Assembly (NCBI GenBank): GCA_945890485.1
Contig: CAMDCN010000009.1
Location: 186,001-250,000, forward strand
DNA: 64,000 nt
DNA from: Candidatus Sulfopaludibacter sp. SbA3
GTDB taxonomy: Bacteria > Acidobacteriota > Terriglobia > Bryobacterales > Bryobacteraceae
Direction of reading: 5' to 3'
In this document: in pieces, positions 7,428 to 18,702 of the stretch
Layout of the letters: every line of letters begins with the position of its first letter
Position numbering within the stretch: position 1 is the stretch's first letter
Position numbers and translations under genes: made by a program
The notes under the pieces: model-generated
The model's database searches: none
Seen by the model: the letters and a program-made list of their open reading frames with translations, nothing else
Told to the model about the DNA's origin: nothing

Positions 7428-7955
7428 GTGAATCGTCTCGTCTTCACGCTCGCCCTGCTCTCCGTTGGCCTTCCTGGCGCGACGTTGCAGAAGCTGTCCT
7501 TTGACGAGATGGTCGGGCATTCCACCGCCATCGTTCGCGCCAAGATCGGTCCCGGTTCCGGTCGGCAGCACGGTGCGCTCGTCTATACCCATCACACGGT
7601 TACAGTGCTAGAGTCCTGGAAAGGCACGCCCGGAGTCTCCATTGATGTTGTTGTGCCCGGTGGGCAAGTCGGCCGTCTGCAGCAGTCGGTCGCGGGGGCC
7701 CCGGTGCTCACCCCCGGCAGTGAACTGGTTCTGTTTCTGTGGAAATCCCGCTCCGGTCTCACCCATGTCATTGGACTCTCGCAGGGAGTCTTTCAGCTCG
7801 AACGCGACGCCGCCGGGTCAGTAATCCTGAACCGAGCCCCTTTGGCCGCCAGCTTGGTGTCTTCGAGTGGTCGCCTCACGCACGATGACGGAATGACCAT
7901 GCCGATGAGCGAGTTCCGCACCCGCGTTTCGTCTGCTCTCGGGAGGTCCCGGTGA
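7428..7955 (+). CDS. Small secreted protein coupled to a matrixin-type protease
   Basis: About 175 residues with an N-terminal signal peptide (NRLVFTLALLSVGLPGA). GTG 7428 is preferred because AAGGA (7419-7423) lies just upstream and the signal peptide then begins at once; ATG 7398 is the alternative and adds ten residues without a ribosome site. After the signal peptide it has a beta-rich body (SFDEMVGHSTAIVRAKI, VLESWKG). I do not assign a family. Its stop codon overlaps the GTG start of the next gene (GTGA), so the two are translationally coupled, and it may be a partner, chaperone or inhibitor of the secreted metalloprotease encoded downstream. That role is inferred from position only. 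Confidence 0.7.
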   Translation: MNRLVFTLALLSVGLPGATLQKLSFDEMVGHSTAIVRAKIGPGSGRQHGALVYTHHTVTVLESWKGTPGVSIDVVVPGGQVGRLQQSVAGAPVLTPGSELVLFLWKSRSGLTHVIGLSQGVFQLERDAAGSVILNRAPLAASLVSSSGRLTHDDGMTMPMSEFRTRVSSALGRSR

Positions 7956-10453
7956 ACCTCCGGCGCTCTCTGGCCGCATTGATCCTCACGAGCAGCTTGG
8001 CATCGGGCTACTACCATTTCGTCCGATTCTCCAGCCGTAACGCTCCCTTCAACCCGATCGTCGAAAAATTCGATGTCGCGGCGCTGCCCGAAAAGACGCT
8101 GACCTATCAGATCGCCGAAAATGGCCCCGTCACCCTCGCCTCGGGAGACTCTTTTCCCGCCCTCGTCAGCCAGATCCGCGCTGCCGCCCGCGTGTGGAGT
8201 GAGGTGGAGACCTCGGAGCTGCGACTCCGTTTTGGCGGACTGTTCTCACCTGGTCAGCCTGTTCCGTCCACGCCCGGCGTCGATGTCGTGTTCGAAGAGC
8301 TTCCCCCCGGCGTGAATGGCTACGGGAGCGTCACCGTACGTGGCGAACTGCTCCCCGGATCCAATTTCGTTCCGATACAGCGCTCGCAGATCGTCCTGAG
8401 CCGTGATCTGGCCAACCGCCCCAGTTGGGGTTCTGCGTTCTTTCTCACCGCAGTTCACGAGTTCGGGCACGCGTTGGGTTTGCAGCACTCGTTTACCTCC
8501 GGCGCCATGGCCACGGAAATCACTCGCGGAACCACCAAGATCCGCCCGATCACTCCGGACGACGCTGCCGGGCTCTCCGTCCTCTATCCCACCGCCACCT
8601 TCCGCCAGCAACTTGGTTCGATCACCGGCCGGGTTACCGCGGGCAGCGATGGCATCGCCATGGCTTCCGTCGTCGCGATCGCTCCCCGCGGCGCCGCCAT
8701 CAGTGCGCTCACCAGCCCGGATGGCACCTTCAAGATTGAAGGACTGCCCCCAGGACAATACTACGTCTACGCTCACCCGCTGCCGGGAGCGTTGCAGGGG
8801 GAGCCGACTCCGGGCAACATACTGCCTCCGCTCGACCCCACCGGCCGGGCGTTCGATTTTGGATCCAGCTTCGATACGCTCTTCTTCCCCGCCTCGCGGA
8901 CCCCGTTCTTTACGGTGACGGTAACGGCCGGCGAACCATTGGAGGGCATCAATTTCTCAGTCACCCGCCGAACCTCGCCGGGCATCCACAGCGTACAGAC
9001 CTACAGCTTCCCGGCCCAATTGGCCGTGAAGCCCGCGCAGCTTTACTCGACCGATTCCCCGCGCAATTTCCTGGTCGCAACGGGTGTGGGCTTGGTGCAG
9101 AACAATCAGCCTGCCTCGGGTCTGCAGATTACTACTTTAGGTGGATTCGCCACCGTTCCGCCCAACGGCATTCGGTCTTACGCCCCCTCCCCGGCATATT
9201 ATCTGGAGGTCGGCTTCCAGTTCGCACCCTTCGCGCACGAAGGTCCGGGGCATCTGATGTTCAGCCGCGGTACGGACCTCTACGTTCTGCCCAACGCCCT
9301 TCGGCTTGCCCAACGTCCCGCCCCGCAGATCGACTCCATTACGTGGCGTCCGGAAGATGCCACGGCTGTCGTCTCTGGCCAAAACTTCGGCACGGACACT
9401 CGCATTCATTTCGATGGAGTTGCTGCGACGCATCGCGCCTTGGATGAACAGGGCCGGCTGATCATCAGCTTGCCTCCTGCGTCCCCTGGCCACCGGTCGG
9501 CTGTTGCGGCGTTCAACTCCGATGGGCAAAGCTCCCTCTTCGTGCAAGCTCCGGTTGAGTATGTATATGAAGGGTTGGTTGAGTCTTCGTTCGTCAGTGG
9601 CATCACGCTCTCGACCCCTTCGCTTCCGGCCGGAACCGAGTCATTGATCGAAATCACTGCTCCGCAACTGGGAGCCACCAGCGAAAGCGTCATCCAAGCA
9701 GGATTCAGCACCAGCGACATCCAGGTCCGCCGCCTGTGGACCGCCGCCAACGGCCGCATTCTGGCTAACGTGTGGGTCAGCCCTGCCGCGGCCGGAACCT
9801 CCGCCACTCTCACCGTTTCGAATGGTCTGCGCCTTCTGAGCCAGCCCAATGCCCTGCAGGTCACGGCCAGCCCGGCGCGTCTCATCCAAGCCACCCTGCC
9901 GCTAGGCGTCGTCGGCTTCGTTCCCGGCACTGCCGGGCAACTCCTCGTCAGTAGCCCGCAGTTGGCCGGGTCGCCGACGGTCTCTCTGAATGGTCAGCCA
10001 GTCACCGTCATCTCCTACGATGCGGGTATCCTCACCTTCGTTGTACCCGCTAACCTGCCCACCGGCCCCATCGCGGTCCGTGTCGGGATGGCTGGTGAGG
10101 TTGCCTTGCCCCTCGGCGTCCAGGTGCTGCCGCCGCCCGCGATGATCACCTCGGTCATCGCCGGCATCAACCAGAACATCAGCGAAGCCCGTCCCGCCCG
10201 GCCGGGCGAGATTCTGACGGTTACCGTCTCCGGTCTTCCGGAGTCCATCTCCGCCTTCGGTTCCACGCCCCGCCTGACGCTCTCGGTCGGCGGCATCGAG
10301 CACCGGACTATCTCGGTCACCGCCCTTGGTTCGGCGGTGCAGTTCCAGTTCATTCTGCAGAATACGGTCCCTACCGGCAATCTGCCGTTGAACGTGACGA
10401 TCGATGGCGTCTCAGCGAACCTGCCCGCCCTGCCCGTGCGCGGATTGAACTAG
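7952..10453 (+). CDS. Secreted matrixin-like metalloprotease with Solibacter-type C-terminal repeats
   Basis: 833 residues. GTG start with GGGAGG at 7941-7946, overlapping the previous stop codon. Order: signal peptide, matrixin/metzincin catalytic domain with the zinc motif HEFGHALGLQH at residues 169-179 and a Met-containing GAMATEI segment as probable Met-turn, a carboxypeptidase-regulatory-like Ig fold (about 224-285), then several beta-sandwich domains resembling IPT/TIG and TIGR03437 modules. No propeptide cysteine switch was recognised. It is probably exported, and the repeats may anchor or present the catalytic domain. The substrate is unknown. The long repeat-rich tail makes it much larger than a simple matrixin. 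Confidence 0.88.
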   Translation: MNLRRSLAALILTSSLASGYYHFVRFSSRNAPFNPIVEKFDVAALPEKTLTYQIAENGPVTLASGDSFPALVSQIRAAARVWSEVETSELRLRFGGLFSPGQPVPSTPGVDVVFEELPPGVNGYGSVTVRGELLPGSNFVPIQRSQIVLSRDLANRPSWGSAFFLTAVHEFGHALGLQHSFTSGAMATEITRGTTKIRPITPDDAAGLSVLYPTATFRQQLGSITGRVTAGSDGIAMASVVAIAPRGAAISALTSPDGTFKIEGLPPGQYYVYAHPLPGALQGEPTPGNILPPLDPTGRAFDFGSSFDTLFFPASRTPFFTVTVTAGEPLEGINFSVTRRTSPGIHSVQTYSFPAQLAVKPAQLYSTDSPRNFLVATGVGLVQNNQPASGLQITTLGGFATVPPNGIRSYAPSPAYYLEVGFQFAPFAHEGPGHLMFSRGTDLYVLPNALRLAQRPAPQIDSITWRPEDATAVVSGQNFGTDTRIHFDGVAATHRALDEQGRLIISLPPASPGHRSAVAAFNSDGQSSLFVQAPVEYVYEGLVESSFVSGITLSTPSLPAGTESLIEITAPQLGATSESVIQAGFSTSDIQVRRLWTAANGRILANVWVSPAAAGTSATLTVSNGLRLLSQPNALQVTASPARLIQATLPLGVVGFVPGTAGQLLVSSPQLAGSPTVSLNGQPVTVISYDAGILTFVVPANLPTGPIAVRVGMAGEVALPLGVQVLPPPAMITSVIAGINQNISEARPARPGEILTVTVSGLPESISAFGSTPRLTLSVGGIEHRTISVTALGSAVQFQFILQNTVPTGNLPLNVTIDGVSANLPALPVRGLN

Positions 10454-10639: not shown

Positions 10640-10770
10640 ATTCCCGTTCCTCGCTGTGTATACCGAAAATCGTGGAGATAGACGGACACCGGACCACCAA
10701 ATTATCGCGGATCGTGCCGGCAGGCTGAAACGCTTACTTCCCTCCTGTCACTCCTTCTCAGGACGAGATT

Positions 10771-11052
10771 ATGCAAACTCAAACCGTCGCCTCTTGGACC
10801 GAACCCGAAGGCCGCTACGAGCTCCTGTTCCACCCCACCGGGACATCCACCCTAGCCGAACCCCTCAGCCCTCGCGAGATCGAGGTTGCCCGACTCGTCG
10901 CCGCGGGGCTTCCCAACAAGATCATCGCCCACGAACTGGGCATCTCTAATTGGACTGTATGCACCCATCTGCGTCGCACCTTCTCGAAACTCGGCGTCAC
11001 CACCCGCGCGGCGATGGTCGCCCGGTTGCATCAAACCGGCTCCCTGCGCTAA
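10771..11052 (+). CDS. LuxR-type helix-turn-helix regulator, single domain
   Basis: 93 residues. AGGA at 10760-10763 precedes the ATG. Residues 30-90 form a GerE/LuxR DNA-binding domain: LSPREIEVARLVAAGLPNK and a recognition-helix region, ISNWTVCTHLRRTFSKLGV. There is no receiver or autoinducer domain, so any input must come from another protein or from its expression level. It lies 35 bases upstream of the ECF sigma gene on the same strand and could be the first gene of that operon or its activator. Either role is inferred from position. Confidence 0.85.
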   Translation: MQTQTVASWTEPEGRYELLFHPTGTSTLAEPLSPREIEVARLVAAGLPNKIIAHELGISNWTVCTHLRRTFSKLGVTTRAAMVARLHQTGSLR

Positions 11053-11087: not shown

Positions 11088-11687
11088 ATGAATGCTGCCG
11101 GGACGCCTGTGGAACAATCGTCTTTCAACTTGGAGTATCTGGCTCGCCTGAAGGAACAGGAACCAGACACGGAAACCCACTTCGTGAATCACTTCACGAA
11201 CGTGCTTCAGGCGCGTCTGCGGTTTCAGCTCCGTTCCCGCCAGATGATCGACGACGTCTGCCAGGAGACCCTCCTCCGTGTCCTCATCCACGTCCGTCGC
11301 GGTACCCAAATCGAACGCCTGCCCGCCTTCGTCCACGCCGTCTCGAAAAACGTAGTCCTCGAAGCGCTTCGAGGTCAACAGAAGCACTCGACCACGGAAG
11401 AAGAGTTCCCCGATCTCCCCGACGTTCGTATTGACTTCGACGCATCGCTAATCACCAAGCAGCGCCAAGCCGCCGTCCGCCAAGTCCTCGCCGAGCTCCC
11501 GGATAAGGACCGCCGCATCCTCCAGCGCCTCTTCCTCGACGAAGCCGACCGCGAGGAACTCTGCGCTGAACTTGAAGTCGACGGTGAGTATCTCCGCGTC
11601 CTCCTCCATCGGGCCAAACTGCGGTTCCGTTCCGCCCTTGCCCGCACCCGCACGGCCGCTGTCAGCGTCCTTTCGTTTTTGGTCTAA
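11088..11687 (+). CDS. ECF-type RNA polymerase sigma factor
   Basis: 199 residues from ATG 11088. It has the sigma region 2 pattern (FRSRQ-type helix, DDVCQETLLRVLIHVRRG near residues 58-75) and a region 4 helix-turn-helix (LPDKDRRILQRLFLDEADREEL, then a VLLHRAKLRFR recognition segment). The ribosome site is poor; a GTG seven codons in is an alternative start. The next gene encodes a zinc-finger anti-sigma factor, so it is probably held inactive at the membrane until a signal releases it, and it may drive its own operon, which continues to the CHAT protein at 13108-15471. I see no promoter repeat that would name its ECF group. Confidence 0.85.
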   Translation: MNAAGTPVEQSSFNLEYLARLKEQEPDTETHFVNHFTNVLQARLRFQLRSRQMIDDVCQETLLRVLIHVRRGTQIERLPAFVHAVSKNVVLEALRGQQKHSTTEEEFPDLPDVRIDFDASLITKQRQAAVRQVLAELPDKDRRILQRLFLDEADREELCAELEVDGEYLRVLLHRAKLRFRSALARTRTAAVSVLSFLV

Positions 11688-11726
11688 TACGAAACGAATC
11701 GCCGTCATGCGTCACTCTAAAGAAAA

Positions 11727-12371
11727 ATGACAGGAATGGATCACGATCAAGCAGAGCGAACCCACGCGGCTGAACGGTACGTTCTCCGCGAAATGCCGGC
11801 CGAGGAAGCCGAAGCGTTTGAATTGCATTATTTCGGCTGCTCCGTCTGCGCCGATGAGCTGCAAACTCTCCGCGCCCTGGCCGTTAACGCTCGCGCCATC
11901 GAAGCCGCTGAATCCGGCAAAGTCCTCGCGTTCCCCTCCCGCTCAGCGCCCGCCGGCTTCCGTTGGTGGCCTGCCGCGACCGCTGCCGGTTGGTTGGTAG
12001 CTGGAATACTCGGCTGGCAGCATTACCTGCATCCTTCCGCCGCGTCCGGCCCTGAACCCATGGCCGCCTATGCCCTCCGCAGCGTTTCGCGTGGCGAACC
12101 TAACCGGGTAACCGTCGCGCCGGGGATTCCTCGCTTCGCCCTCTATCTCGATCCCGTTTGGGATAGCCGTCCCGCTTCTTACCAACTCCAGATCAGCGGG
12201 CCCGTGCAACGCACCGTCTCCGTCCCTGCTCCGGCCGGCGGACAGCCGCTCTATCTGTCCCTCGATAGATCCGCCCTGCCGCCCGGTCTCTACCAACTCA
12301 CCGTATCGGACCCCTCCGGCGCCCGCCTCGCCGGACTCGAATTCGACCTCCAATTGCCTCCGGTTCAATAA
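11727..12371 (+). CDS. Membrane anti-sigma factor with zinc-finger (ZAS-type) domain
   Basis: 214 residues. The cytoplasmic N-terminus has an H-x3-C-x2-C zinc motif (H34, C38, C41), the hallmark of ZAS anti-sigma domains. One membrane helix follows (about residues 79-97, WWPAATAAGWLVAGILGW), then a periplasmic beta-rich domain of about 115 residues. By family it binds the ECF sigma factor encoded 39 bases upstream and releases it when the periplasmic part senses a cue or is cleaved. It lies 8 bases before the next gene, consistent with one transcript. Confidence 0.85.
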   Translation: MTGMDHDQAERTHAAERYVLREMPAEEAEAFELHYFGCSVCADELQTLRALAVNARAIEAAESGKVLAFPSRSAPAGFRWWPAATAAGWLVAGILGWQHYLHPSAASGPEPMAAYALRSVSRGEPNRVTVAPGIPRFALYLDPVWDSRPASYQLQISGPVQRTVSVPAPAGGQPLYLSLDRSALPPGLYQLTVSDPSGARLAGLEFDLQLPPVQ

Positions 12372-12379
12372 CCCAACTT

Positions 12380-13108
12380 ATGGAACGCTTTCTCTTTCAC
12401 GCAGAAGCCTATGCCCTCACCGGCCGCTTCACCCTCCCTTTTGAAGAAGTAATCCCCGTACAGGCGATGGCCACCCTCCCCATCACAGGCGGCTACGGAG
12501 CCGTCGAAGTCGAGAATTTTGACTTCCGCAAGCTGGTCAGCTTCCGCCGTGCCACGGCCTACGTCTCGGGCGGGCAAAGCAAGCAGGATCGGGACGGCCG
12601 CGGCCCTTACGTCAGCCGCTCCACGATCGAAATCGAAGGATTCAACGTCCTGGGCATGGTCACTGCCGCCAAGATTTTCGCCTCGGTCAGCACCTCCATC
12701 CCTTTCACCGGCGAAGAAGCCTCCATCTATATCCAGTGCGGCTTCGAAAATCTCCGCATTGCCGGTGAGCCCGTCAACCCCCAACTCGATACCGATTTCT
12801 TCAACCGCGTCCCGCAATGGTCCGCCCTCACGGCCGAAGTCAGCAAAAACGCGCCCCGCGACATTAGCCTCCCCGTCGGCTCCTCCTTCCGGAACGACGT
12901 ACTCGGCTTCACCATGGCCCGTGGCGAAGTCCGTGGCTGCAAAGCCACCGAGATTTCGGTTCCCAACTTCGGCAAGATTTCCCTCGCGGAAATGTTCGTC
13001 ACCCCCTATTCCCGCCGCGTCAGCATGATCCGCATCCAGCTCGGTTGCCCGGAAGAAGGCGGACTCGAAGCCGGCGGCACCGGCGGCAATGGTGTCGGCT
13101 GGCCGTAA
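12380..13108 (+). CDS. Unknown protein between anti-sigma factor and CHAT lipoprotein
   Basis: 242 residues, no signal peptide and no membrane helix. The composition is beta-rich, with many Val, Phe and Ser (GYGAVEVENFDFRKLVSFR, SVSTSIPFTGEEASIYIQCG), ending in a flexible Gly-rich tail (EAGGTGGNGVGWP). I do not recognise a family. Its stop codon overlaps the start of the CHAT gene (TAATG), and it follows the anti-sigma gene by 8 bases, so it belongs to the same operon. A role as a substrate, regulator or carrier for the CHAT protein is possible but is only inference. Confidence 0.8.
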   Translation: MERFLFHAEAYALTGRFTLPFEEVIPVQAMATLPITGGYGAVEVENFDFRKLVSFRRATAYVSGGQSKQDRDGRGPYVSRSTIEIEGFNVLGMVTAAKIFASVSTSIPFTGEEASIYIQCGFENLRIAGEPVNPQLDTDFFNRVPQWSALTAEVSKNAPRDISLPVGSSFRNDVLGFTMARGEVRGCKATEISVPNFGKISLAEMFVTPYSRRVSMIRIQLGCPEEGGLEAGGTGGNGVGWP

Positions 13109-15471
13109 TGCGCCCCGCGGTTCTCCTGCTGTTGTTGCTCGCCGGCTGCCGATCCGCCGATCCCGAACAGCTCTATCAGCAGGCCGAACTCCAGTTTCAG
13201 CAGAGCCAATGGGCCGCTGCGCTCGAAACCCTCGATCGCGCACCCCGCACGCCCAGGTTTCTGCTGCTCCGCGCCGAAGTGCTCCTCGGCCAAGGCGACC
13301 GCGCCGCGGCTGAGGCGCTTCTCCCGCAAGAGCCGTATTCGGAGGCGGCTCTTGAGGGCCGGCGCCTCATGCACCTCGGCAACGCTGCCCGTCTCCGCGG
13401 CGATACCGCCGAATCGCTCCGCCTCCTCCGTGCTGCGCAGCCCCTTGCCGGCGCCCACAACGCCCTCGCCATGGGCATCGATCTCCGCCTCGCTCTCACC
13501 CTCACCCGCCTCAACGACTTTCCCGCCGCCGAATCCGCCGCCCGCCGCGCCCTCACTTACGCCGAATCGCAGGAGCTCCCTCATGCCGAACTCCAAGCCC
13601 TCGGCAACCTCGGCTACGTCGCCCTCAACGCCCATCGCTACGAAGAAGCCATCGCCTGGTTTGAACGCGTCCGCCGGCTCTCCGGCTCCCCCGGCAACGA
13701 AGAGAAGGCTCTCGGCAACCTGGCTCTCTGCTACGCCGGCCTCGGCGACCACGATCGCGCGCTCAACCTCCTCCTTCGCGCGGAACCTCTCGCCGTCGCC
13801 GCCGGCCAACAGCACGATGCCATGGTCTGGCTCGGCCAAGCCGGCTCCCTCCTCTTCGCTCGCGGCGATTTTCCCGCCGCCGCCGAACGCTTCCGCCGGG
13901 CCCTCCAAATCTCGGAGTCCCTCGGCACCGCCTTCACTCCTGCCTGGGCCTATAGCGTTGCCCGAACCCACCTCGAACGAAACGATCTCCCCGGCGCTGA
14001 ACCCTACCTCGCCCAAGCCGCTAAACTTGCCGATCCCAACGATCTCTCGCTTCGCGCGGCCCTCGCCGTCACCCGTGCCCGCATCGCCGAAGCCCAGGGC
14101 CGCCTCCCCGCTGCCGAATCCGCCTACCAGACCGTCGCCGCCGACACAACCTTCGCCCCCCCGGACCGCCAGGAGGCCCTCGGCCGCCTCGCCCGGCTCT
14201 ACGCCCGCACCGGCCGCAACAACGAGGCCGCCAACAAGTACCGCGAGCTGCTCGCCGTCGGCGAAGCCACCCGCTCCCGGCTCGAACGCGACGACTCCCG
14301 GCTCTCCTACGGTGCCAGCATCGCCGACCTCTACGCCGAGTACGTCGACTTCCTCATGGAGCGCGGCGAAACCCTCCCGGCCCTTGAAACCGCCGCCGCC
14401 ATCCGGGGCCGGCTCCTCGGAGGCGCCCCCATCCGCGCCGCCACCCTTCGGCAACTTGCCGCCGCCACCGGCCACGTCATTCTCTTCTACTCTGTCGGCC
14501 CCACCCGCTCCTGGCTCTGGACCATCACCCCTACCGCCGTCCACGCCAGCCTCCTCCCCGGCGCCGACACCCTGCGCCCCCTGCTCGCCAACTACCGTCA
14601 ACTCATCGAGGATCTCCGCGACCCCCGCCAAAGCGAAGACCCTGGCCGTCGCCGCCTCACTGAACTCCTCCTCCATCCGGCCGCCGCCGCGCTCCCGCCG
14701 GGCGCCCGCGTCTACCTTGTCCCCGATGGGCCCCTCCACTCGCTGAACTTCGAAACCCTGGCCTCCCCCCACCATCCGGACCGCTACTGGATTGAGGACG
14801 CGACCATCACCGTCGCCCCCGCTCTTGGCCTCCTCCTCGCCCCCTCCTCCCCTCCATCCGGCGCCCGCACCCTCCTCGTCGGCGACCCCGCCATCATGCC
14901 CGAGCCGTACCAACCCCTCCCCCACGCCCGCGAAGAACTCGCCGCCATCGCCGCCGCTTTCCCCCCTGGCGCCGCTCAGCGCCTCGAAGGCGTAAACTGC
15001 AGCCGCCCCCGCCTCCTCGCCGAACCCGTGGCGCCGTACCGCTACGTCCATTTCGCCGTCCACGCCGTCGCCGACACCCTAGACCCCCTCCACTCCGCCC
15101 TGCTCCTCACCCGCCGCGACGATGGCTCTGCTCTGACGGCCGCCGAACTCCGCAAAATGCCGTGGCGCGCCGAACTCGTCACCCTCTCCGCCTGCCGCAG
15201 CGCCGGCGCCCGCAACTATCGGGGCGAAGGCCTCGTTGGCCTGGCCTGGGCCTTCCTCGAAGCCGGAGCGCAAAGCGTCATCGCCGGCCTCTGGGACGTC
15301 AACGACCGCAGCACCGCCCAACTCATGGGTGCGCTCTATCAACGGATCGCGCAGGGCCAAAAGCCCGCTGAAGCCTTACGCCAGGCAAAACTCGAACTCC
15401 TCCGCTCGAACAGCCCGTACGCCAAACCCTACTATTGGGCCGCGTTCCTCTACTTCAACGGCAGCCGGTAA
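13108..15471 (+). CDS. TPR-CHAT protease-like lipoprotein
   Basis: 787 residues from ATG 13108, which overlaps the previous stop codon by one base. A lipoprotein signal with lipobox LAGC (C14) predicts attachment to a membrane on the periplasmic side. Residues about 20-430 form helical TPR-type repeats. The C-terminal third is a CHAT (caspase HetF associated with TPRs) domain with an intact-looking dyad: His652 in HFAVHA and Cys696 in TLSACRSAGA. CHAT proteins are caspase/separase-like cysteine peptidases, some of which act in regulated death or defence, most of them uncharacterised. Being the last gene of a sigma/anti-sigma operon, it may process a signalling partner. Peptidase activity is predicted, not shown. 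Confidence 0.9.
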   Translation: MRPAVLLLLLLAGCRSADPEQLYQQAELQFQQSQWAAALETLDRAPRTPRFLLLRAEVLLGQGDRAAAEALLPQEPYSEAALEGRRLMHLGNAARLRGDTAESLRLLRAAQPLAGAHNALAMGIDLRLALTLTRLNDFPAAESAARRALTYAESQELPHAELQALGNLGYVALNAHRYEEAIAWFERVRRLSGSPGNEEKALGNLALCYAGLGDHDRALNLLLRAEPLAVAAGQQHDAMVWLGQAGSLLFARGDFPAAAERFRRALQISESLGTAFTPAWAYSVARTHLERNDLPGAEPYLAQAAKLADPNDLSLRAALAVTRARIAEAQGRLPAAESAYQTVAADTTFAPPDRQEALGRLARLYARTGRNNEAANKYRELLAVGEATRSRLERDDSRLSYGASIADLYAEYVDFLMERGETLPALETAAAIRGRLLGGAPIRAATLRQLAAATGHVILFYSVGPTRSWLWTITPTAVHASLLPGADTLRPLLANYRQLIEDLRDPRQSEDPGRRRLTELLLHPAAAALPPGARVYLVPDGPLHSLNFETLASPHHPDRYWIEDATITVAPALGLLLAPSSPPSGARTLLVGDPAIMPEPYQPLPHAREELAAIAAAFPPGAAQRLEGVNCSRPRLLAEPVAPYRYVHFAVHAVADTLDPLHSALLLTRRDDGSALTAAELRKMPWRAELVTLSACRSAGARNYRGEGLVGLAWAFLEAGAQSVIAGLWDVNDRSTAQLMGALYQRIAQGQKPAEALRQAKLELLRSNSPYAKPYYWAAFLYFNGSR

Positions 15472-18248: not shown

Positions 18249-18702
18249 GCAACTCCCCGTCCTCCGCGCTCTGCTCGACGCGGGAGCCGATCCCAATGCC
18301 GCCTACGGCGACCGCCCTCTTGAAGTAGCCATCCGGACCGGTCCCGCTCCCGTCGCCCTTCTCCTCGACGCCGGCGCCGATCCCAATCGGAGCAACCCTT
18401 TCGGCGATCCCGTCTTCTTCGCCGCTACGCAAAAGCCGAGCGATCTCGAAACTCTGAAACTTCTTCTCGAACGCGGAGCCAGCCGCAACCTCCGCAGCAC
18501 TCGCGGCGAAACCGCGCTCTCCCACGCCGTTGCCGCCAGCAACTGGAAAGCGGTGCTCCTCCTGCTGGCTCAGGGCGCGGACATCCAGCAGGCCGGAACC
18601 GCCGATGGCAAATCCTTCCGCGAACTGGTGGAACGGAGCGCCACTATCCAGGGCGAACGAGGCGATCTCGCCGAAGTGCTCCGCCTCATCAGGACCAAAT
18701 GA
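18022..18702 (+). CDS. Ankyrin-repeat C-terminal part of the same frameshifted gene
   Basis: This frame holds about four ankyrin repeats: LPVLRALLDAGADPNAAYGD, then PVALLLDAGADPNRSNPFGD, then LETLKLLLERGASRNLRSTR, then WKAVLLLLAQGADIQQAG. Its only start codon is a TTG at 18022 inside the upstream coding region with no ribosome site, which supports the view that it was fused to the membrane segment encoded from 17784. Ankyrin repeats mediate protein-protein contacts; the whole protein would be a membrane-anchored cytoplasmic scaffold. The stop codon overlaps the next gene (ATGA). Confidence 0.7.
   Translation: MSSSSANSAPPHTDSPIPLQPPPVAFKPVPLTDLQNAVLANDAPAVAQAAAAGLRGRRDAAGLLILALHRVQKSPEQLPVLRALLDAGADPNAAYGDRPLEVAIRTGPAPVALLLDAGADPNRSNPFGDPVFFAATQKPSDLETLKLLLERGASRNLRSTRGETALSHAVAASNWKAVLLLLAQGADIQQAGTADGKSFRELVERSATIQGERGDLAEVLRLIRTK

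Follow-up and report, generated by a model that had tools for sequence, protein, structure and literature searches.

A conserved ECF sigma, anti-sigma and TPR-CHAT gene cassette of Candidatus Sulfopaludibacter that seems to control its own promoters

A 64,000-nucleotide stretch of DNA from Candidatus Sulfopaludibacter sp. SbA3, a member of the Acidobacteriota, was analysed (the whole stretch being referred to here as the window), with a focus on four consecutive genes which specify an extracytoplasmic function (ECF) sigma factor (SIG), a membrane anti-sigma factor (ASF), a 242-amino acid (aa) protein (UNK) and a lipoprotein combining tetratricopeptide repeats (TPR) with a CHAT domain (CHAT). 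The intergenic gaps between SIG, ASF, UNK and CHAT are 39, 8 and -1 nucleotides (nt), and re-reading of the coordinates reproduced exactly the arrangement given in an earlier, sequence-only reading of this DNA. Absent from that four-gene account was a small LuxR-type helix-turn-helix (HTH) gene at 10771-11052, which precedes the sigma gene and stands behind the first of two ECF-type promoters (P1 and P2). The features of the locus, numbered according to the window, are as follows.

10726..10753, + strand: P1, ECF-type promoter TGAAACG-N16-CACTC, separated by 17 nt from the ATG at 10771 and found in the same place in relative loci L042-L045
10771..11052, + strand: small LuxR/GerE-type HTH protein, 93 aa, Pfam GerE 61.4 bits, first gene behind P1
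11088..11687, + strand: ECF sigma factor SIG, 199 aa, Sigma70_r2 and TIGR02937 above cut-off
11690..11717, + strand: P2, ECF-type promoter CGAAACG-N16-CACTC, inside the 39-nt SIG-ASF gap
11727..12371, + strand: membrane anti-sigma factor ASF, 214 aa, HxxxCxxC plus one hydrophobic segment, zf-HC2 below cut-off
12380..13108, + strand: 242-aa all-beta protein UNK, a choice-of-anchor P relative, NF040603 30.5 bits with a cut-off of 27
13108..15471, + strand: TPR-CHAT lipoprotein, 787 aa, CHAT 211 bits; MRPAVLLLLLLAGC
13147..13149, + strand: codon of the lipobox cysteine, Cys14
15061..15063, + strand: codon of the dyad residue His652
15193..15195, + strand: codon of the dyad residue Cys696

The sigma factor matches Pfam Sigma70_r2 with 29.7 bits (cut-off 24) and the NCBIfam model sigma70-ECF (TIGR02937) with 51.4 bits (cut-off 42.9), its region 4 being below the Pfam cut-off. 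In the anti-sigma factor, the sequence HYFGCSVC at residue 34 corresponds to the HxxxCxxC pattern, and a hydrophobic segment near residues 80-97 is followed by a part of approximately 115 residues that is predicted to be periplasmic; the Pfam zf-HC2 score is 19.9 bits, below the cut-off of 22.2. The window has both features of this class, an ECF sigma together with a membrane anti-sigma that carries HxxxCxxC, and this layout places the zinc-finger domain in the predicted cytoplasm and the C-terminal part in the predicted periplasm. Among the relatives described below, HxxxCxxC was retrieved from 73 of 76 anti-sigma factors, the three misses being cut by a contig end, and a hydrophobic 18-mer exceeded the threshold in 65 of the 76.

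In order to assess whether this order recurs, as the sequence-only reading had proposed to check in related genomes, genome contigs were scanned with the CHAT alignment, which returned 356 relatives, the best 80 of which were retained. These 80 loci are the closest CHAT relatives, and the result therefore describes one clade and not all CHAT proteins. The order SIG-ASF-UNK-CHAT is complete at 68 of the 73 loci that are uncut by a contig end, seven others being cut and five deviating: L102 is SIG-ASF-CHAT and has no UNK, L103 consists of UNK-CHAT only with sigma and anti-sigma unlinked, L104 and L142 lack a sigma within the available upstream sequence, and L125 carries a sigma/anti-sigma pair of another type. 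Upstream sequence exists for 77 loci, at 76 of which UNK precedes CHAT (split over two or more frames in L094, L113, L122 and L138), and a separate anti-sigma frame was found upstream of CHAT in 75 of 80. The set spans other Acidobacteriota, one Myxococcota metagenome-assembled genome and the isolate Luteimonas panaciterrae, the four-gene cassette recurring in many soil bacteria. Isolates with the complete cassette include Acidicapsa dinghuensis (L139), Acidobacterium sp. S8 (L140) and Luteimonas panaciterrae (L097). When the search was made for UNK, it was present in 22 of 61 genomes, all of which are among the 37 belonging to the family of the window's host (0 of 24 outside it); at the 21 UNK loci other than that of the window, SIG-ASF-UNK was in order in all 21 and CHAT came next in 20, the last one running into the contig end. 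This conservation of gene order is far beyond chance. Furthermore, the pairwise distances of the four proteins across 68 loci correlate with r values of 0.60-0.85, as compared to a permutation maximum of 0.13, which indicates that the four proteins travel together. The HTH gene is outside this wider conserved core, a close homologue directly before sigma being confined to five of 21 loci, those of the nearest relatives (L042-L046).

The CHAT domain of the last protein scores 211 bits (PF12770), and several TPR families are above their cut-offs. The sequence-only reading had described an intact His652/Cys696 pair, and both residues were indeed located, His652 within HFAVHA and Cys696 within LSACRSA. 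An alignment of 64 rows was assembled from the window and 63 of the 80 loci (17 of 80 being omitted through a length filter or a skip list), in which His652 and Cys696 are each invariant (64/64) and the lipobox Cys14 is retained in 60 of 64; all three residues had been invariant in the 18 full-length proteins of a first set. By heuristic, a lipobox was recognised at 64 of the 80 CHAT loci, three more are truncated by a contig end, and a hydrophobic N-terminal stretch is visible by eye in most of the other 13. Considering the conserved lipobox or hydrophobic N-terminus, a location outside the inner membrane seems to be under selection. The His/Cys dyad and the membrane anchor are kept by selection according to this alignment, and the protein would be periplasmic.

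An AlphaFold2 (AF2) model of the CHAT protein (pLDDT 90.5, pTM 0.84) was compared with known structures by Foldseek, which returned DdvA as first match (E 1.9e-16, TMq 0.55, rmsd 12.8 over 876 columns), followed by Csx29 and separase. A sequence profile of the CHAT half similarly placed DdvA first (E 1.4e-5) with the His and Cys aligned, while VIA-align 2 ranked TPR(-only) proteins at the top, Csx29/TPR-CHAT chains being at Z 23-27 over about 500-570 residues. The genome that harbours the window encodes nine CHAT proteins. A pattern-based suspicion that the other eight had lost their catalytic residues was dismissed by alignment, as all eight keep His and Cys. In these eight loci (L009-L016) there is no match to the 242-aa protein; a sigma gene adjoins CHAT in four of them (L011 as SIG-ASF-CHAT, L013 and L014 as SIG-CHAT, L016 as CHAT-SIG), and L015 has a weak sigma match.

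The 242-residue protein, regarded as unknown in the sequence-only reading, is encoded at 12380-13108 and is not wholly unknown, since in the protein search it matches the NCBIfam choice-of-anchor P model NF040603 (30.5 bits, above the cut-off of 27); in a six-frame search of the genome the same locus reached 21.4 bits, below the cut-off. After four of the 76 UNK loci had been set aside (L069, L113, L129 and L138), UNK sequences were aligned, and 51 of 73 aligned members match NF040603 at E<=0.01. As a rule, choice-of-anchor P proteins have a signal peptide and a C-terminal anchor. UNK resembles this family in its model score and differs from it in two respects: no signal peptide is recognisable by eye among the N-termini of the 76 UNK loci (the start being uncertain in a few, such as L069), and most aligned members end in a Gly-rich tail instead of a recognisable anchor. 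The absence of a visible signal peptide predicts that UNK resides on the opposite side of the inner membrane from CHAT, and opposite compartments would make it a weaker CHAT substrate, unless it is exported or released. The AF2 model of UNK is all-beta and confident (pLDDT 88.9, pTM 0.88). A gasdermin, a pore or another known fold was considered for it and rejected, since Foldseek against the PDB and BFVD returned nothing at E<=0.001; with VIA-align 2 giving nothing above Z 5.2, no fold is claimed. A hint of AdfA was likewise dropped (15.3 bits, in two of 73 members), and the UNK family profile, by which a Csx30-like partner might have been recognised, has no match at E<=10 among PDB chains.

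A promoter motif was sought de novo upstream of sigma in 62 non-redundant loci, where word counts retrieved parts of TGAAACG-N16-CAC in 12-14 sequences, any word pair occurring in at most 10 sequences in five shuffles; bipartite Gibbs sampling of the regions upstream of sigma gave no clear motif (best 11.1 bits versus 9.9 shuffled). The refined motif is TGAAACG-N16-CACTA and is of ECF type. A looser scan placed 27 sites close to sigma starts (74 kb in total) and another 63 in the remaining 2.33 Mb, many of the latter falling in the SIG-ASF junction. Of 83 distinct junction sequences, 49 reached a score of 10 or more out of 12, as compared to 0.4 on average and never more than 2 in 50 shuffles; this enrichment is partly circular because the motif was derived from the same loci. 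On the 281-kb contig, P1 and P2 are the only matches to YGAAACG-N16-CAC on either strand. The window contains no match to the strict motif with its CACTA end; both copies there terminate in CACTC, and one starts with CGAAACG. The sequence-only reading had suggested looking for an ECF promoter before 10771 or 11088, and P1 at 10726-10753 lies before the former, its boxes being kept in L042-L045; P2 is a second ECF-type promoter, situated after sigma and ahead of ASF-UNK-CHAT. At L103, a box-like site with N15 spacing stands before UNK. From these sites we infer that this sigma factor reads promoters of the type TGAAACG-N16-CACT, and the cassette seems to control its own promoters, the genes for the anti-sigma factor, the 242-aa protein and CHAT probably being outputs of sigma. 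Given the position of P2, CHAT probably belongs to the output of the switch or feeds back on it, rather than serving solely as its trigger.

Further candidate targets were looked for among the motif sites of the window's own genome, 30 of 32 of which were inspected (30 with loci). Four of these 30 have a called start 20-25 nt past the CAC box: P1, P2, a gene for a 307-aa protein and a gene for a subtilase (Peptidase_S8). The boxes before the 307-aa gene (G000/G009) and the subtilase gene (G000/G001) are kept while the spacer has changed, the flanks also being similar. DUF2278 occurs in four of 14 genomes of the genus, not including that of the window, with the motif close upstream in all four (once as TGTAACG), and a 106-aa protein found in two of the 14 has the motif in both. 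The subtilase, the 307-aa protein and the DUF2278 of the congeners are probable further sigma targets on the basis of these sites. The strict motif was also counted in 16 genomes, whose selection had partly depended on its presence, and gave 62 sites as compared to 8 for the reversed pattern. Of these, 20 are in loci of the cassette and 40 of the other 42 were examined; many have no clear gene, and the recognised products are an M14 peptidase, a multicopper oxidase, a glutaminase, DUF2278, a GMC oxidoreductase and PilZ. Several of the products have no signal peptide, whereas others seem by eye to have one (L217, L221, L223, L232, L235, L236 and L238), so that the lack of a leader is a tendency at most. 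A site at G000:C2:334982-335009 (TGAAACG-N16-CACTC), look-alikes of which in G006, G009 and G012 share GATGCTACACTC or a similar end, was set aside as a regulon member and may be a housekeeping promoter (TACACT). Separately, a 700-aa family with the sequence NPNYFGN and no Pfam match was observed at eight of the 80 loci (for instance L076:8509-10641 and L141:558-2726), the L141 member being positioned behind the promoter motif; the window's genome yielded no match to this family.

The gene order, the dyad, the anchor, the motif with its sites and the fold are computational observations, to which the following mechanism is tentatively fitted: a self-regulated ECF envelope switch resembling a split DdvA, in which the anchored TPR-CHAT protein senses a signal and disables the anti-sigma factor. 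The zinc-finger anti-sigma would hold sigma at the inner membrane, while TPR-CHAT, attached on the periplasmic side by lipid or a transmembrane segment, would sense an envelope signal by means of its TPR superhelix. Upon triggering, CHAT would cut or otherwise disable the periplasmic part of the anti-sigma factor, resulting in release of sigma, which would then read P1 in front of the HTH and sigma genes, P2 in front of the other three genes of the unit, and the promoters of a small regulon. Transcription from P2 would supply more anti-sigma as negative feedback and also reload the sensor/protease. Effector roles would fall to the 242-aa protein and to further targets. An envelope signal is presumed, and proteolysis of the anti-sigma factor by CHAT, which the sequence-only reading had also proposed, would fit both the topology and precedent.

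Several results weigh against such a switch. The motif score is below 10 at 34 of the 83 SIG-ASF junctions, the zinc-site cysteines are lost in one of 22 aligned anti-sigma factors (L059), and DdvA is absent among the 50 VIA-align 2 matches listed for the CHAT model. A specific co-variation of the periplasmic half of the anti-sigma factor with CHAT was rejected, as the distance analysis singled out neither half and both track CHAT (r of 0.77 and 0.67). The 32 motif sites of the own genome compare with 34 for the reversed control, and a relaxed pattern in 11 genomes of the genus gave 47 sites as compared to 53 for the control; as the boxes are not enriched, the regulon of the window's genome would be small and most other matches would be due to chance. 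In addition, a more distant subtilase homologue in G003 (37% identity) has no motif site before its start, and CHAT is located behind a sigma-type promoter, as expected of a plain effector.

This last point leads to a rival that we consider doubtful but by no means improbable, namely that CHAT, like the 242-aa protein, is purely an output, that the anti-sigma factor alone senses through its periplasmic beta domain, and that CHAT, exerting no control over sigma, acts as a protease whose substrates are proteins of the envelope or of foreign origin, or else the 242-aa protein when the two come to share a compartment. The position of P2 before ASF-UNK-CHAT is in its favour and fits the split switch alike; the UNK-CHAT pair is also tighter than its link to sigma, being kept at 76 of 77 loci including the unlinked L103 and L125 with its pair of another type. 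Conversely, DdvA is a case of an anti-sigma factor that itself includes a CHAT domain, and L102 keeps SIG-ASF-CHAT without UNK. If CHAT were instead a non-cleaving co-sensor that binds the anti-sigma factor and alters its hold on sigma by conformation, both the ranking of DdvA as best Foldseek match and the periplasmic orientation of both proteins predicted from sequence would be accommodated, but the His/Cys invariance (64/64) is hard to explain without catalysis, which makes this unlikely. A CRISPR-linked, Craspase-like system (Csx29/Csx30/CASP-sigma) is very improbable: Csx29 chains rank high among the fold matches, yet the Csx29 model NF041237 reaches only 19.4 bits as compared to a cut-off of 300, a search of the 64-kb window for CRISPR-like direct repeats found none, CHAT is predicted to be exported here, and the PADLOC matches are confined to weak BovA hits. 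A more speculative and rather unlikely reading is that, upon envelope damage, the sigma regulon runs a programme of signal-peptide-independent release, processing or altruistic lysis, in which leaderless proteins of extracellular type (the choice-of-anchor P protein, the subtilase and the 307-aa protein, with an M14 peptidase, a protein glutaminase and a multicopper oxidase in a relative) would be combined with an anchored caspase-like protease, the 242-aa protein meeting CHAT only after export or lysis.

Elsewhere in the window, positions 7952-10453 encode a large protein with a matrixin-type metallopeptidase domain, kept immediately ahead of the unit in L042-L045, which are near relatives, and two imperfect 28-nt direct repeats at 18270-18387 lie within an open reading frame resembling ankyrin repeats by eye.

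No published description of the four-gene unit was found in the open-licence literature. The sequence-only reading had considered a periplasmic, lipid-anchored CHAT wired to an ECF factor to be unusual, which stands in part: CHAT-ECF couplings are known from Craspase and DdvS/DdvA, but this layout was not found in that literature. In the excerpts of PMC10028731, cleavage of Csx30 by Csx29 is reported to relieve sigma factor inhibition, so that Craspase/CASP, like the window, has a TPR-CHAT protease of similar fold wired to an ECF sigma; it differs in being RNA-activated and associated with Cas7-11, whereas the window has no CRISPR repeat in its 64 kb, and its inhibitor Csx30 is not described in those excerpts as a zinc-finger membrane anti-sigma factor. 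The CalpL/CalpT/CalpS system (PMC11417357) likewise involves a protease that cuts an ECF-bound anti-sigma factor, a likeness that holds for the proposed role of CHAT, but there the protease is of Lon type, has a SAVED sensor and is CRISPR-linked. Sections of two papers report operons that pair metacaspases with sigma-70 factors, in Myxococcus among others (PMC3501461), and EACC2-caspase neighbourhoods with ECF sigma and DUF1822 (PMC8195603); caspase-like genes stand beside sigma in both, as here, but no four-gene unit of this type is described in those sections.

For Acidobacteriota, the unit provides a link to DdvS/DdvA logic, that is, to a CHAT protein within a switch from envelope to transcription. 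DdvA, whose registered name is CHAT domain-containing protein, is the partner of the ECF sigma DdvS in Myxococcus xanthus, the PDB titles naming DdvA only. Its structures (PDB 8rot and 8rw5, titled transmembrane anti-sigma factor) combine, like the window, a membrane anti-sigma and a CHAT-type part. As DdvA is a single chain of 991 residues, the two parts are joined there and are two proteins in the window, whose unit splits the anti-sigma factor from TPR-CHAT and adds the 242-aa gene. The targets may also differ: DdvS controls an antiphage island (PMC12288465), and no antiphage target was recognised here among the subtilase, the 307-aa protein and DUF2278, the regulon being partly known. The unit supplies a predicted protease-substrate pair, and with a defined transcriptional partner, a promoter and a target list for one anchored CHAT protein, CHAT function becomes directly testable in a genome that has nine. 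By analogy with DdvS/DdvA, the unit may be a new version of the Myxococcus switch.

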